Origin: Methylobacter sp. BlB1
Lineage (GTDB): Bacteria; Pseudomonadota; Gammaproteobacteria; Methylococcales; Methylomonadaceae
Length of the DNA: 50,366 nt
Assembly (NCBI RefSeq): GCF_015476545.1
Contig: NZ_JADMKV010000029.1
Span: 1-50,366, forward strand
Direction: 5' to 3'
The notes under the pieces were generated by a model. The model made no database searches and was not told the origin of the DNA. It worked only from the letters and a program-made list of their open reading frames with translations. Both the position numbers and the translations under genes were made by a program. Positions 3,226-9,959 of this stretch are shown piece after piece. Numbering within the stretch: position 1 is the stretch's first letter; the number at the start of each line of letters is the position of its first letter.

Positions 3226-3999
3226 TTAATACCTTCGGTTATTTCTGACCGGTGTGATGGCAAACATGATCAGAAATCCGATACCGGCAAAGAGAGTCAG
3301 CCATTTTGTCATGCCATATAACCGGCGCAGCTTGCGGTTGGCTTTCTTGATAATCTTGAATTCGTCCAGATAAATCGTTTCACAAGCGCCGTTGCCGGTG
3401 TCGTCCCGGATGACGCTGGTGCCGCGCTGAAAGCCGCTGGCTTTATTGGAATAGCTCGCCAGGACACCTTTCAGCCGGATATGATCGCCGGGTTCGGCAC
3501 TCATCAGGGCTGTTTTGACTGCGTCATCATCGGTCAGCAGATGATTGTTGGACAGTGCATTCATTTTGAAAAGCGCACCGATTGAGGCATCGGGCCAGGA
3601 CGCCCAGCAGGTCCAGCTGTCATTGCTGAACGTCATGCTTTTGTAAACGCCTGACTCGACATTCTCGCCCCAGATTACGCAGAGATCACGCAGATTGATG
3701 AAATCCTTCCAACGTTTGTGATGCCAGATATCACTGAAATCATCGGCATCATGATAGCCGACAACGACGCCGTCGAGCTCATAGCTGAATTTGGGATTGA
3801 TTGTGTATTCCTGTCCATTGACCTGCAGCGTGAAAGCCTGATCGGAAGCCGGCGTTTGCACCGGTTCTTCGAGCTGATCCAGATCGTAATACGAAGGATC
3901 AGGCAACGTGTCCTTATAAAAATAAGTCGCTCCCATCACCAATACGCTGAGCATGAAAAGCCATTTGAACAGGGATTCAAAAACGGAAGAGAGGAGCAT
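3226..3999 (-). CDS. Unknown protein with a transmembrane segment at each end
   Basis: I do not recognise a family. The 257-residue product has a hydrophobic segment at about residues 8-26 and another at about 230-248, leaving a central soluble domain of about 200 residues. The central part is rich in Trp and contains three Cys residues (in DLCVIW, WTCWAS and GACETIY), and has a segment with EPGDHIRLKGVL that looks like a small beta-barrel/OB-like strand pattern. This suggests an inner-membrane protein with a periplasmic or cytoplasmic domain held between two anchors. It begins 32 bases after the lpdA stop on the same strand, so it may be the last gene of that transcript. Function not inferred. 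Confidence 0.7.
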   Translation of the reverse strand: MLLSSVFESLFKWLFMLSVLVMGATYFYKDTLPDPSYYDLDQLEEPVQTPASDQAFTLQVNGQEYTINPKFSYELDGVVVGYHDADDFSDIWHHKRWKDFINLRDLCVIWGENVESGVYKSMTFSNDSWTCWASWPDASIGALFKMNALSNNHLLTDDDAVKTALMSAEPGDHIRLKGVLASYSNKASGFQRGTSVIRDDTGNGACETIYLDEFKIIKKANRKLRRLYGMTKWLTLFAGIGFLIMFAITPVRNNRRY

Positions 4000-4031: not shown

Positions 4032-5486
4032 TTATGATGCCAGTGTGCCCACTGGCAAATGCAATGCCCGTTTCTCAAGAGACAGCGCCGCTTCATGCAA
4101 GGCTTCTGAGATGGTCGGGTGTGCGTGTATGGTTCTGGCCAGATCTTCGCCGCTGGCCGAGAATTCCATAGCCAGTGCGGCTTCGGCAATCAGCTCGGAG
4201 GCATGGGCGCCAATGATATGAACGCCAAGTATGGCATCGGTTTCGGCATGGGCAATGATCTTAACCATCCCCTCAGAAATGCCCATGGCATGAGACCGGG
4301 CGGCCGCGCTTAACGGGAAAGTTCCGATCTTGATGCGCTCACCTATGGCTCTTAAAGCCTGTTCGGTCTGGCCGACCCAGGCAACTTCAGGTTCGGTATA
4401 AATAACGCAGGGCAGGAGTTCGTAATTGATCGGGTTGTGAACGCCGGCAATCTGTTCGGCGACGAAGACGCCTTCCTCTATGCCCTTATGGGCCAGCATG
4501 GGGCCGAGCGAAGTCAAATCACCTATCGCATAAACACCAGGCAGGGTGGTTCTGCAGTTTTCATCGACATGCACGAAGCCATTTTCATCGAGCATTAAAT
4601 TGGCTTCCGCGGCGATCAGGTTTTCGGTATTGGGTTTTCTTCCCGAGGCAACAAGCAGTTTGTCTACACGCAGGCAATGCAGACCTTCACTATCCTGATA
4701 TTCGACAGTAACTTTTTTATGGCCTTTTTTGGTGGAAATGACCCGCGCTCCCAAACGCATTTCCAGTCCTTGTTGCGTATAGATGCGATAGGCTTCGCGT
4801 GAGATTTGCTGGTCGGGCAGCGTTAAAAAATTTTCCTGCGCTTCCAGCATAACGATTTCGGAGCCGAGTTTCTTCCAAATGCAGGCAAGCTCCAGACCTA
4901 TGACACCGGCGCCGATAATGCCCAGCTTTTTGGGTGCGCTGTCAAGGCTTAAGGCGGTTGTGGAGTCAATGATGAATTCATTATCGATCGGGGCGCAGGG
5001 TAGACAGATCGGGGATGAGCCGGCGGCCAGGATAATATTTTTGGCCTTAATGATGGACGATGACGAAGGGTCTACAGGGGTAATTTCCACTTCGCAGGCA
5101 TTGAGCAATTTTGCCTGGGCATGGATACGGGTAATTTTGTGATGGTTAAATATATCGACGATTTTATTGCTGAGCGTTTCGATGATTTTGTCCTTGCGTC
5201 GCATCATCTGGGAGATGTCCACTGAAATATTTTCAGCATGAATGCCATGTCTGCTCATCTCATGGTTCAGCAGATGATAAATTTTTGCCGACTCGAGAAG
5301 GGCTATAGCGGGGACACAGCCGGCATTAAGATAAGTGCCGCCCAGGCTGCTCTGGCGTTTGTTATTGCTCCAGTTATCGACGCAGGCCGTTTTCAAGCCG
5401 AGCTGCGCGCATCGGATGGCGCTGACATAACCAGCCGGCCCTGCGCCAATGACGACGACATCGTAATGAGATTGTAGCTTTGACAT
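4032..5486 (-). CDS. lpdA: Dihydrolipoamide dehydrogenase (E3) with a missing redox cysteine
   Basis: Belongs to the FAD-dependent pyridine nucleotide-disulfide oxidoreductases and is the expected E3 of the adjacent 2-oxoglutarate dehydrogenase, which normally reoxidises dihydrolipoyl groups with NAD+. Visible parts: FAD-binding VVVIGAGPAGY (residues 10-20), NAD-binding GIIGAGVIGLEL near 190, the second FAD contact YAIGDL, and the C-terminal dimerisation domain with the His456-Glu461 pair (HPTISE). The expected redox motif GGTCLNxGCxPSKALL reads GGTYLNAGCVPAIALL: Tyr52 replaces the first cysteine (codon TAT at 5331-5333), Cys57 remains, and SK has become AI. With one cysteine it should not form the catalytic disulfide, so normal E3 activity is doubtful. 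The length (484) and every other motif are normal. It lies 356 bp downstream of sucB, behind a repeat. Family assignment is firm; activity is uncertain. Confidence 0.9.
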   Translation of the reverse strand: MSKLQSHYDVVVIGAGPAGYVSAIRCAQLGLKTACVDNWSNNKRQSSLGGTYLNAGCVPAIALLESAKIYHLLNHEMSRHGIHAENISVDISQMMRRKDKIIETLSNKIVDIFNHHKITRIHAQAKLLNACEVEITPVDPSSSSIIKAKNIILAAGSSPICLPCAPIDNEFIIDSTTALSLDSAPKKLGIIGAGVIGLELACIWKKLGSEIVMLEAQENFLTLPDQQISREAYRIYTQQGLEMRLGARVISTKKGHKKVTVEYQDSEGLHCLRVDKLLVASGRKPNTENLIAAEANLMLDENGFVHVDENCRTTLPGVYAIGDLTSLGPMLAHKGIEEGVFVAEQIAGVHNPINYELLPCVIYTEPEVAWVGQTEQALRAIGERIKIGTFPLSAAARSHAMGISEGMVKIIAHAETDAILGVHIIGAHASELIAEAALAMEFSASGEDLARTIHAHPTISEALHEAALSLEKRALHLPVGTLAS

Positions 5487-5842
5487 AATAAAGCCTTCTT
5501 AAATATTAACTGATGTTACGCAGTAAGTTGAATACAGATCGGTTTGGCTAAAGTATCGCTAGCGCGAAGGTTTGGTTTAATCGGGTTTATCGCACCCGAG
5601 GGCGAGTGCCTTTCTTTTGCGTCGCCTCGGCAATTGCTCCTGCATTTCCTCGCTCCCACGCTCCTGCGTGGGAACGTATACCGGGCTTGGATACGACGTG
5701 CCGCTCTCAAAGCTCGGTATCGGTTCCTACGGAGGACCATGGGAACCAGGGACCCAGCGTTGGCGGCGTCGAATGCTGGGTGTTCTCGCCGAAAGCTGCG
5801 GTGCTCGGCGCGGCAAACGGGATAAAATCGTCCGACATAACA
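5487..5842. other. Gap between sucB and lpdA containing a palindromic repeat
   Basis: No gene is visible in these 356 bases; overlapping open frames on both strands are short and look non-coding. The segment breaks what is normally a compact sucA-sucB-lpd operon. It is GC-richer than the lpdA leader and holds the palindrome at 5651-5676. Next to lpdA, AGAAGG sits 7 bases before the ATG as a ribosome site. No convincing lpdA promoter was identified. Confidence 0.55.
5651..5676. repeat. Palindromic intergenic repeat
   Basis: CCCACGC (5655-5661) and GCGTGGG (5666-5672) form a perfect 7-bp stem with loop TCCT, extended outward to CG...CG with one mismatch. The form CGTTCCCACGC...GCGTGGGAACG matches a dispersed repeat I recall from several gammaproteobacterial genomes. 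No second full copy is present in this window, so repeat status rests on general knowledge. Confidence 0.55.
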
Positions 5843-7126
5843 TCAGATATTAAGAAGCAGATGGGCGGGAGCTTCCAGGCATTCTTTAATCGTCACTAAA
5901 AACTGCACGGCATCGCGTCCGTCGACCAGGCGGTGATCGTAGGACAAAGCCAGATACATGATTGGCCGGATGACAATCTGGCCGTTTTCGACAATCGGGC
6001 GCTCCTTGATGGCATGCATGCCCAATATGGCGCACTGCGGCGGATTCAATATCGGCGTTGACAGCATGGAACCGAAAATACCGCCATTGGTAATGGTGAA
6101 TGTGCCGCCTTTCAGGTCCTCGTAGCCCAGTGTGCCGTTACGCGCTTTTTCTCCGTAATCGGCGATGCTTCTCTCAATGCCGGCGAAATCGAGCTGATCG
6201 GCATCGCGCAGAACCGGTACGATCAGGCCGCGCTCTGTCGTAACAGCGATGCCAATGTCATAGTAGCCGTGATATATAATATCGTTATCGTCAATGGAAG
6301 CGTTCACAGCCGGAAAACGCTTCAAGGCTTCGATGGAAGCCTTGACGAAAAATGACATGAAGCCCAGCTTGATATGGTGCTTTTCTTCGAAACGGGCTTT
6401 GTACTGATTGCGAAGATCAATAACGTTTTGCATATTGACTTCATTGAAGGTCGTCAGCATGGCTGCATTTTGCTGGGCCTGCAGCAGGCGCTCGGCAATC
6501 CTCGCTCTCAAACGCGTCATTGGAACTCGTTGTTCCGGACGTAGATTCATAGCAGGCATTGCCGGCTCGGCTGGCTTGACTATCTCTGGTTTAGCCGTTG
6601 TTTCCTGCCTGATGGGCTCTACGGGCGCGGTTTCCGGTTTTGACGGTTCGATTTCAGCTGCAGGCGGTTTGTGGCTTTCCAGATAATCTAGCACGTCGGT
6701 TTTAGTGATGCGGCCATTTTTGCCCGTGCCTTTTATGCCAACGGGATCGATATTATTTTCCAGAATCAGTCGACGTACCGAAGGGCTGAGCGCAGGATGC
6801 GCTTCACTGCCAGGTGCGCGTGTTTCAGGTTCGGCCATTTCAATATCCTCAACGGCCTGTATTTTGCCGGCTGTCTGTGCTTGAGCGGCTTGAGGCTCGA
6901 GCACGGCCAGTACTTCGCCGGCAACGACTATCGAGCCGTCTTTCTTGCGTATTTCACGCAGAATGCCTGAGTCCGGCGCGGGTACCTCAAGAACCACTTT
7001 ATCCGTTTCCAGATCGACCAGGTTTTCGTTTTTATCGACCAAATCGCCGGGGCGCTTGTGCCAGGTAGCCAGTGTGGCGTCTGAAACCGATTCGGGCAGG
7101 TTGGGGACTAGGACTTCAATGCTCAT
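5843..7126 (-). CDS. sucB: 2-oxoglutarate dehydrogenase E2, dihydrolipoyl succinyltransferase
   Basis: Core of the 2-oxoglutarate dehydrogenase complex; transfers succinyl from lipoamide to CoA. Order along the 427 residues: lipoyl domain (1-78) with lipoylated Lys43 in [10 protein letters not shown]; a Pro/Ala/Glu-rich linker; the peripheral subunit-binding domain at about 112-150, including [10 protein letters not shown], which docks E1 or E3; another linker; and the catalytic domain from about 200 with the active-site His398 and Asp402 in SYDHRLVDG. All functional residues are present. The ATG lies one base after the sucA stop, with AGGA inside the last sucA codons as ribosome site, so translation is coupled to sucA. 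One lipoyl domain, as usual for SucB. Confidence 0.96.
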
Positions 7127-7127
7127 G

Positions 7128-9959
7128 TTATTTTCCTGATGACTTACTGTATAAGGCCGATTCTACGACGGCTTTTTGTTGTTCTATGTGGACGCGGAAA
7201 TTCCCCACCGCAGGGGCTGCAGACGCCTCTCTGCCACTGTAACTCATAGTGACATGCGCAGGCAGACTATCTGCGAAATGATGTTTGGATTGATACCAGA
7301 CGCCTTGATTCTGAGGCTCCTCCTGACACCAGACGAATTCTTTCATGGCCGGATACTTCGTCAGTTCCGCTCTGAAGGCTTCGATGGGGAAAGGATACAA
7401 TTGTTCTATGCGCGTGATGGCTACATGTTTCAGATTGTCTTTGTCCTTGCGGCGCGCTTCGAGCAGATCATAGTAAACCTTGCCGGAGCATAAGATAAAG
7501 CGCGTAACTTTTTTCGGATTGATCGGGTCCTGTTCGCCGATGATAGTCTGAAATTGCCCATCGGTCAGGTCTTCCAGCGTGGAAACGGCGAATTTATGCC
7601 TGAGCAGGCTTTTGGGCGTCATGACAATCAGCGGCTTTCTGTAAGGCCTGATCAATTGCCGGCGCAGCAAATGAAATATCTGTGCCGGCGTGGTCGGATT
7701 GCAGACCTGAATGTTGTGTTCGGCACACAGCTGCAGATAGCGTTCAAGTCGGGCGGATGAGTGTTCAGGTCCCTGGCCTTCGAAACCGTGCGGCAGAAAC
7801 ATGACCAGACCGCTCAGCCGGCCCCATTTGGTTTCTCCGGAACTGATGAACTGATCGATGACGACTTGCGCGCCATTGGCAAAATCGCCGAACTGCGCTT
7901 CCCAGATGACCAGTGTATTCGGTACGGTGGAACTGTAGCCGTATTCGAATCCCAATACGGCCGCTTCGGACAGCAATGAATCGAAAATCTGCGTCTGGCC
8001 CTGATCCTTGTCCAGATGTTTCAGCGGCGTGTGGGTTTTGCCGTTGAGCTGATTATGCAAGACGGCATGGCGATGGAAGAATGTGCCCCGGCCGACATCC
8101 TGGCCGGTCAGGCGGACATTATATTTTTCCATCAGCAAGGTCGCATAAGCCATGTTCTCGGCAAATCCCCAGTCCAGAGGCATGGCGCCGGCAGCCATTT
8201 TACGGCGGTTATCCATAATTTTAGCGACGCGCGGATGTAGTTCAAAGCCGGCCGGCAGCCGCTGCATGCGATCGTTGCAGAAGCGAATGTGGTCTATCGA
8301 AACGGAAGTGTCGCAGGGGGTGTCCCATTTTCCGTGCAGGAACTGATTCCATTGCGTGGTATATGAGTAATGGTTGTGGTCCAGCACAGGCCGGGAAACA
8401 ACCTGGCCGGCATCAAGCTGCTTCTGATACTGCTCTTCCATTTCGGCAGCCTGTTCCTCCGTAATGACGCCTTCACTGATCAGGCGGTCCGCATAAAGCC
8501 GCCGCGTGGTTTTGAGTTTGCGGATTTTCTTGTACATGCGCGGCTGAGTGGCCGAGGGCTCATCGGCTTCGTTGTGGCCGAGGCGACGGTAGCAAATCAG
8601 GTCGATGACGACATCTCTGTTGAAAGTCATTCTGAAATCAAGCGCCATTTTAGTGACAAAAATGACGGCTTCGGGGTCGTCTCCATTGACGTGGAAAACC
8701 GGCGCCTGAATCATGCTGGCCACATCGGTGCAATAGAGGGTGGAACGCGCGTCCTGCGGATTGCTGGTGGTAAAGCCGATCTGGTTGTTGATGACGATAT
8801 GAATCGTGCCGCCGGTAGAAAAGGCCCGGGTTTGCGACATGTTCAGCGTTTCCATGATGATGCCTTGTCCCGAAAACGCGGCATCGCCGTGGATCAGCAC
8901 TGGGATGACCGCTTTTTCGCCGTCCGCGCCGGCCCTGTCCTGACGTGCTTTTACCGAGCCTTCCACGACCGGATCGATGATCTCAAGGTGCGACGGGTTG
9001 AAAGCCAGCGTCAAATGCAGCGGTCCGCCAGGCGTGGCAATGTTGGATGAAAACCCCATGTGATATTTGACGTCGCCGGAAATGACACCGGGCGATAGCT
9101 TGGGCAGGCCGGCGAATTCGTCGAATAAAATGGCGGGACTTTTGCCGAGGACATTGATCAGCACATTCAGCCGGCCTCTATGCGCCATGCCGATCACGAC
9201 TTCTTTAACGCCTTTTTCCCCGGCTCTCTGGACGAGTTCGTCGAGAACCGTAATCAGCGATTCGCCGCCTTCCAGTGAGAAGCGCTTTTGGCCGACAAAT
9301 CGTGTATGCAGATAGTTTTCTATGCCTTCAGCTGCAGTCAGCAGCTTCAACAGCCAGCGCTTTTTTTCGGGTTCTATCGCTAAAGTCGATTTCGGGCTTT
9401 CCAGATGATTTCTTATCCAGCGTTTGATTGTCGTATCGACAATATGCATGTATTCGGTGCCAATGCTGCCGCAGTAAATCTCTTTCAGGCTGGTTATGAT
9501 GTCGCGCAGCGGTAACCGGTCAATGCCCCGCAGCATGTCGGCATCGAACAGAGTATCCATGTCGGGCGCGGACAGTCCGTAATAAGCTGGATCAAAATCG
9601 GGAGGCGGGGGCGTTGTTTTTCCCAGCGGATTGTTTTGAGCGATTTGATGCCCGCGGACGCGGTAATGGTTGATGAGCCGGGCAGCGGCTGATTGCTTTT
9701 TGACGCTTTCTTCCGTGAACCCTTGCAATTCGGCCAGCCTGCCTTGAGATTTAATCGCGAGCTGTGCAAAGCGTTTTACGATGGGACTGTGGGCCGCTTC
9801 ATATTCGACACCGTCGTGAATGGCGCTGAATTCTTTCTGCCAGCTGGGGTCGACCGACTCAGGGTCTTCCAGAAACTTTTCATACAGACTTTCAATGAAA
9901 CTGGCATTGCTGCCATAGAGGCCGGAAGAATCTTGAAAAAGTTTTAGCAGCTTACTCAT
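7128..9959 (-). CDS. sucA: 2-oxoglutarate dehydrogenase E1 component
   Basis: Thiamine-diphosphate enzyme that decarboxylates 2-oxoglutarate and succinylates the lipoyl arm of SucB; TCA cycle step. The 943 residues match the usual length (about 930-945). The N-terminus has the short E2-binding helix region typical of SucA. AHRGRLN near residue 260 and the diphosphate/Mg motif spanning GDAAFSGQG to NNQIGFTT are intact, and the C-terminal transketolase-like half is complete ([10 protein letters not shown] near 880). The ATG at 9959 has GGAT 7 bases upstream. It is first in the sucA-sucB pair. Upstream is a long AT-rich gene-poor stretch that must hold the promoter. Type I methanotrophs were long reported to lack this activity; the gene itself looks intact. 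Confidence 0.96.

Follow-up and report, generated by a model that had tools for sequence, protein, structure and literature searches.

The gene behind sucA and sucB in the Methylobacter sp. BlB1 DNA analyzed here (50,366 nucleotides, hereafter the window) appears from its sequence to encode a retained flavoprotein, derived from the E3 of the 2-oxoglutarate dehydrogenase (OGDH) complex, that lacks dithiol chemistry. We draw this conclusion because our tree requires a single loss of the first redox cysteine, five sampled cofactor residues are unchanged on it, and dN/dS is low. The TCA cycle of type I methanotrophs has posed a puzzle for decades, with OGDH genes present and the activity missing or undetected in the accounts consulted (PMC5023229, PMC517821, PMC5802761), and a lineage-wide, selected loss of a redox cysteine in the E3 that belongs to the operon provides a concrete protein for that puzzle. 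The loss, seen in most examined genera of the family, may bear on OGDH activity so frequently going undetected, and metabolic models may credit the OGDH operon with an E3 that it does not supply. The listings and passages of open-licence papers that we consulted contained no report of such a cysteine loss.

An E3-like protein without the redox disulfide

E3 needs both of its redox cysteines, and the Lys of its PSK motif sits beside the flavin. The window homologue, which lies 3' of sucA and sucB (Table 1), reads LGGTYLNAGCVPAIALLE, with Tyr52 and Ile61, and the translation of its open reading frame contains GGTYLNAGCVPAIALLE. Of the features that define a TIGR01350-type E3, the CxxxxC redox disulfide is absent (Tyr52-x4-Cys57 stands in its place) and the PSK Lys is Ile61; the catalytic His-Glu pair is present. 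An earlier note on this DNA had reported a TAT codon for the first cysteine and a change of SK to AI, and both observations hold, the latter as S60A and K61I, with Lys61 in 0 of 99 distinct homologues. Its statement that the FAD, NAD, and His-Glu motifs are intact is likewise borne out in the window copy by GAGPAG and YAIGD, by GAGVIGLE and LLEAQ, and by HPTISE (H456 and E461), respectively. The alignment with close relatives that the note had proposed finds the same Tyr in a second genome, whose protein is 96% identical (L022), and in two more genomes of the genus (L023 and L024).

The window protein scores 484.5 bits against the TIGR01350 (dihydrolipoyl dehydrogenase) profile, over the cut-off of 408.8, and annotation by this model would therefore call it a working dihydrolipoyl dehydrogenase. 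Because the defining disulfide was tested for and is absent, we regard the protein as E3-like and, judging from these residues, would not class it as a working E3. Membership in three related enzyme families was rejected on their curated cut-offs: soluble transhydrogenase SthA (NF003585; 310.5 bits, below the cut-off of 465, with a YxxxxC and not a CxxxxT motif), NAD(P)H-quinone dehydrogenase (NF005883, which we take to be the family of Mycobacterium tuberculosis LpdA; 245.9 bits, below 479), and mercuric reductase (TIGR02053; 314.5 bits, below 454.45).

Table 1. Positions of the sucA-sucB locus and of the altered active-site codons in the window
Feature	Position	Strand	Remarks
E3-derived flavoprotein without redox disulfide (annotatable as lpdA; 484 aa)	4032..5486	(-)	
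Tyr52 codon TAT, where the first cysteine is expected	5331..5333	(-)	ata on the + strand
Cys57 codon (second cysteine; present in the window copy)	5316..5318	(-)	
Ala60-Ile61 codons for canonical Ser-Lys (S60A, K61I)	5304..5309	(-)	
sucB, dihydrolipoyllysine succinyltransferase (E2)	5843..7126	(-)	over NCBIfam cut-off; lipoyl ETDK, subunit-binding-domain, and DHRLVDG motifs
sucA, 2-oxoglutarate dehydrogenase E1	7128..9959	(-)	over NCBIfam cut-off

Active-site residues across homologues

We read the active site in 99 distinct sequences. They come from 135 rows, each matched over at least 400 query residues, after removal of rows that duplicate another across 100 residues near the N-terminus. 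Position 52 is Tyr in 56, His in 28, Phe in 14, and Asn in one, and never Cys, so that an aromatic residue (Tyr, His, or Phe) occupies it in 98 of the 99. Position 57 is Cys in 77, Gly in 11, Ser in 10, and Asp in one (non-Cys in 22 of 99), while position 61 is Met in 39, Ile in 36, Leu in 20, and Val in four, and Lys in none. His456 and/or Glu461 are changed in 40 of 99; Cys57, His456, and Glu461 are all present in 53, the window copy included. The cofactor residues are not all invariant, with Gly at G156 in 92 of 99 and Arg at R283 in 94. Among 88 sites that are invariant in the canonical set, most clade members lack the canonical residue at 11 (C52, I58, P59, K61, S67, G108, L112, G123, G201, S202, and V211), so that the change extends beyond the active site.

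Individual sequences depart further. The smaller clade of L035, L047, L050, and L059 has Arg for the catalytic His, and 14 of the 15 sequences without His456 among the 99 also lack Cys57, possibly a coupled change. Four distant copies were tallied separately from the 99: at position 52, L180 (f5) has Tyr, L181 (f2) Phe, and the f6 copies L184 and L185 Ser; position 61 is Leu in the first two and remains Lys in the other two; and His456 and Glu461 are absent from all four.

The clade conserves segment 434-444 of the C-terminal domain, like some other segments (for example, 315-325), more strongly than canonical E3s do; as a sign of binding to the subunit-binding domain this is only suggestive. 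Two contacts of E3 with that domain, taken from a Bacillus structure, align by eye to N354 and E441; at these eye-matched positions the cysteine-less and canonical groups are similar.

Distribution, ancestry, and selection

Of 201 genomes of the family, 148, from 25 of 29 genera, have a close homologue of the gene (E at most 3e-139), a count of sequence matches, the active site having been read in the 99 distinct sequences. None was found in genera g12 (20 of 20 genomes), g14 (18 of 18), and g22 (5 of 5) or in 10 scattered genomes, among which several are incomplete and two (G064 and G008) have partial or broken copies. Carriers among the best 80 loci include Methylobacter luteus, M. marinus, M. 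tundripaludum, Methylovulum psychrotolerans, Crenothrix polyspora, and Methylotuvimicrobium buryatense 5G. The f4 genomes searched gave no close match to the gene.

Families f7 and f8, which belong to the same order, have a canonical E3 in the same sucA-sucB-lpd place in all six copies read, which come from 4 of 12 f7 genomes and 2 of 2 f8 genomes. A class-wide search of 140 genomes with an f7 E3 as query returned canonical proteins in all of its best 30 matches, a result that the query, itself canonical, favors, with cysteine-less forms possible lower in the list. C52, C57, K61, H456, and E461 are present in 36 of the 36 OGDH-type E3s read outside the clade.

Our tree of 86 sequences, from which active-site columns were excluded, was searched only briefly, is supported by SH-aLRT values alone, and has 25 weak inner branches. 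The cysteine-less forms make up one clade on it (SH-aLRT 99; 35 sequences from f1, one from f5, one from f2, and two from f6), sister to the canonical E3s of f7 and f8 (SH-aLRT 95 for the pair). Counted on the same tree with the PDH outgroup removed (75 rows), the residues need one change at C52, six at C57, five at P59, two at K61, four at H456, and five at E461; the FAD and NAD residues G16, G194, E199, D323, and H333 need none.

The dN/dS of the E3-like gene is 0.036-0.137 in nine pairs, a tenth pair being saturated; that of its neighbors, where estimable, is 0.071-0.123 (sucB) and 0.021-0.072 (sucA). These values point to purifying selection and, with the presence of the gene in 148 genomes, agree with the suggestion of the earlier note that this is a kept, full-length protein and not a product of decay. 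Mean pairwise identity in carriers is 0.67 for the E3-like protein, 0.76 for SucB, and 0.77 for SucA (a sample of 40 of the 96 loci holding all three genes), and the order is reversed in six canonical loci, at 0.83 for E3, 0.78 for SucB, and 0.80 for SucA. Since the E3-like protein is more variable than SucA and SucB in carriers and E3 is the least variable of the three in canonical loci, selection on the gene is somewhat loosened, yet it persists. In L084 (7700-9176), the copy 3' of sucB is broken by frame changes, through natural loss or an assembly error.

Linkage to sucB

Among 111 carrier loci, a set in which some genomes are counted twice, 101 have the E3-like gene on the strand of sucB, starting 6-60 bp past the sucB match. 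The gap is 203-426 bp in seven loci, and three have no sucB; two of these end at a contig boundary, and in L061 the genes are truly apart. L061, from an f1 genome, has its cysteine-less E3 at 6954-8387 and neither sucA nor sucB in the 15.5 kb fetched. Linkage extends to the distant copies L180 and L181, where sucB and a cysteine-less E3 adjoin and the sole sucA found is on another contig, in draft genomes in which a second sucA may have been missed. The f6 loci L184 and L185 have a cysteine-less E3 away from sucAB. In L184 (6285-8083), the copy reads GGTSLLNGCIPAKILL, with Lys kept, and lies 3' of small cupredoxin-like and citramalate-synthase-like genes, names that we gave by eye.

The earlier note had judged that sucA and sucB look functional; in the window both score above their NCBIfam cut-offs, and SucB has the lipoyl ETDK, subunit-binding-domain, and DHRLVDG motifs. 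Across carriers, the lipoyl motif of SucB is present in 99 of 102 loci and the catalytic motif in 101 of 102, and SucB looks competent by these motifs. The subunit-binding-domain pattern was found in 73 of 102 carriers, in 5 of 11 loci of a mixed group that has no E3-like gene beside sucB, and in 7 of 35 canonical loci, numbers too small for a comparison of carriers with non-carriers; the misses probably reflect the strictness of the pattern.

Several further observations concern the window itself. The gap between sucB and the E3-like gene (5487-5842) is 356 bp, versus 16-17 bp in the near relatives L077, L096, and L097, and contains a palindromic element, CACGCTCCTGCGTGGGAACG, at 5657-5676, whose exact 20-mer occurs twice in the genome. 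After the E3-like gene, at 3226-3999 (-), lies a gene for a 257-aa protein that by eye has hydrophobic ends; it has no NCBIfam or Pfam match, and homologues of it lie 3' of the E3-like gene in L068, L091, L097, L098, and L148. Rfam at gathering thresholds returned tRNA only, and a promoter and terminator scan gave counts close to those of shuffled sequence.

A second E3 and possible bypasses

The earlier note had advised looking for a second lpd with a pdh operon, and one is there: the window's own genome carries an aceE-aceF-lpd row (L092) whose lpd is canonical (GGVCLNVGCIPSKALL). Of the 201 family genomes, 187 have a close homologue of this lpd (E at most 1e-100), as do 153 of the 159 good-quality genomes. 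In principle, the pyruvate dehydrogenase E3 could serve SucB.

Among 22 genomes searched, the TIGR03710 2-oxoacid:acceptor oxidoreductase exceeded the cut-off in G010 (M. buryatense), G037 (M. alcaliphilum 20Z), and G207 (f8), and the 2-oxoglutarate step could therefore bypass OGDH in G010 and G037. The window genome and two others of the genus had no TIGR03710 match over the cut-off. Other possible routes named for strain 20Z are a ferredoxin-linked enzyme and the GABA shunt (PMC5802761).

OGDH activity in methanotrophs

The earlier note had made its argument conditional on the organism being a type I methanotroph, and its genome indeed has a homologue of the pMMO A subunit, its nearest named relatives being Methylobacter. 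A pMMO/AMO A subunit match was found in 40 of 50 genomes searched; the ten without one include the distant carriers G201, G204, and G228. The best match reaches at least 382 bits wherever present in f1, f2, f3, f4, and f6 and only 227-368 bits in the canonical-E3 families f7 and f8; G044 (f1) has two lesser matches besides, an additional copy (346 bits) and a fragment (185 bits). This pattern by family fits an E3 change that came with methanotrophy, the families being few.

The note had also described OGDH activity as long reported missing from such organisms. M. alcaliphilum 20Z, which we identified as G037 from a contig identical to plasmid NC_016108.1 over the 15,000 bases compared, carries the Tyr form GGTYINAGCVSSMALLES 3' of sucAB (L238). 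In the available passages on this strain, pyruvate dehydrogenase activity was 120 (methane) and 290 (methanol) nmol/min/mg and OGDH was not detected, both enzymes being assayed via NADH formation at 340 nm (PMC5802761). A 2015 paper states that gammaproteobacterial methanotrophs have OGDH genes and that the activity had never been demonstrated (PMC5023229, as excerpted). 13C labelling of M. buryatense on methane is said to show a full oxidative TCA cycle (PMC6456754, citing Fu et al. 2017).

Methylomonas corresponds to g12 (LL1, koyamae, and AM2-LC were identified by their plasmids), in which none of the 20 genomes had a close match to the gene; three other g12 genomes (L079, L080, and L085) have sucAB and no third gene. 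In Methylomonas sp. DH-1, succinate built up in a mutant of succinate dehydrogenase, with data not shown in that paper, whose authors found no alternative route in the genome (PMC6373157, in the passages available). This indirect evidence suggests OGDH activity in one Methylomonas strain. The pattern of activity fits a lock that is absent from Methylomonas, in a comparison of few strains and unlike assays and with the gene content of DH-1 taken from its genus.

We assume that M. capsulatus belongs to family f4. Three f4 sucAB loci (L226, L227, and L233) have no third gene or E3 3' of them, and the Tyr form would therefore not explain the missing activity in M. capsulatus, reported without OGDH activity despite MCA1952 and MCA1953 (PMC517821, as excerpted). 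Loss of a dedicated E3, through either gene loss or cysteine loss, may be the wider pattern.

What the protein might do

We tentatively favor, with rather less than even confidence, a SucB-bound, non-catalytic E3 that limits the OGDH complex. The gene would be an ancient derivative of a normal, dedicated E3 of the OGDH operon, whose first redox cysteine would have been lost once, in the ancestor of several families of the order. Judged by comparison, the protein kept the fold and the FAD and NAD(H) sites, and dithiol-disulfide exchange should be impossible; it presumably cannot oxidize dihydrolipoamide. NADH can probably still reduce its FAD, as happens in yeast Irc15p. The derivative most likely would still bind the peripheral subunit-binding domain of SucB and fill the place of E3, so that NAD-linked oxidation of 2-oxoglutarate would be limited or gated, perhaps with NADH sensed through the retained NAD and FAD sites. 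Residual turnover would use the canonical E3 of the pyruvate dehydrogenase operon. A more specific proposal, in which the pseudo-E3 is an NADH-responsive lock on SucB that blocks NAD+ reduction, yields conditionally to the pyruvate dehydrogenase E3, and causes the missing activity in carriers, we consider doubtful; if true, it would make the pseudo-E3 the molecular cause of the missing NAD-linked OGDH activity in carrier methanotrophs.

The single clade beside canonical E3s of the same operon place, the unchanged cofactor residues, the low dN/dS, the tight linkage to sucB, the pairing in L180 and L181, the intact motifs of SucB, the conservation of segment 434-444, and the 20Z assay together with the absence of the gene from Methylomonas speak for the SucB-bound E3. 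Against it stand the copies apart from sucAB in L184, L185, and L061, which make a role outside the complex possible, as well as the wide gap in the window, the greater variability relative to SucA and SucB, and the reported lack of activity in M. capsulatus, which probably lacks the gene. The gene is also dispensable, because it is absent from whole genera (g12, g14, and g22). The separate L061 copy and the reversed order of variation shifted our weight slightly from the SucB-bound E3 toward an oxidoreductase and a relic.

Nearly as likely, and only slightly behind the SucB-bound E3 in our estimation, is a repurposed NADH oxidoreductase that passes electrons from NADH via FAD to an acceptor other than a disulfide, such as quinone or oxygen, with a position behind sucAB that is inherited and not functional. 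The FAD and NAD residues are largely retained (the five sampled on the tree unchanged), the near-universal aromatic residue at position 52 suggests a new constraint, copies occur off sucAB in L184, L185, and L061, and Irc15p and M. tuberculosis LpdA provide analogues (PMC6296175). The position within 60 bp behind sucB in most loci, and with sucB but without sucA in L180 and L181, argues against it, and among neighbors viewed unsystematically we noticed no acceptor gene beside the E3-like gene.

That the gene is instead a decaying relic on its way out, its E3 having lost constraint as OGDH flux fell in methanotrophs, is improbable. The absence from three f1 genera and of close matches in the f4 genomes searched, the broken (perhaps misassembled) copy in L084, and the lower identity relative to SucA and SucB would suit such a history; low dN/dS, occurrence in most family genomes, near-invariant cofactor sites, and the aromatic constraint at position 52 run counter to it. 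A working E3 that reoxidizes dihydrolipoamide via Cys57 alone or another thiol is more improbable still: Cys57, His456, and Glu461 do occur together in 53 of 99 sequences, the window copy among them, but Cys57 is missing from 22, His456 or Glu461 is changed in 40, Lys61 is missing from all 99, and E3 requires both cysteines. The lack of lipoamide activity in Irc15p agrees with this (PMC6296175). The weakest alternative, that a sequencing or assembly error at 5331-5333 produced Tyr52, as the earlier note had allowed, has a negligible chance of being right, given that three further genomes of the genus share the residue and that Cys52 is absent from all 99 distinct homologues.

Comparison with known systems

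Among the closest known systems is Pseudomonas aeruginosa LpdG (PDB 5u8u), the E3 of 2-oxoglutarate dehydrogenase. Compared with OGDH E3s such as LpdG, the 99 distinct homologues lack CxxxxC and Lys61, and 40 of them have a changed His456 or Glu461. M. tuberculosis LpdA, a quinone reductase, is alike in missing one cysteine and in not reducing disulfides (PMC6296175), although its His-Glu pair is missing too, unlike that of the window copy. SthA, with its CxxxxT motif, is alike as a member of the same superfamily in which one cysteine is replaced and flavin chemistry proceeds with nicotinamides (PMC9460512); it keeps the first Cys and has Thr as the second, whereas the window protein has the first replaced.

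Yeast Irc15p is likewise an E3 paralogue without redox cysteines that remains active with FAD and NADH: NADH reduces it, and it shows both diaphorase and menadione reductase activity, and the passages available report no lipoamide activity (PMC6296175). Irc15p is eukaryotic, microtubule-associated, and found beside a normal Lpd1p, and its likeness to the window protein is by description only. Unlike Irc15p, the window protein is encoded in the OGDH operon, where it takes the place of that operon's dedicated E3.
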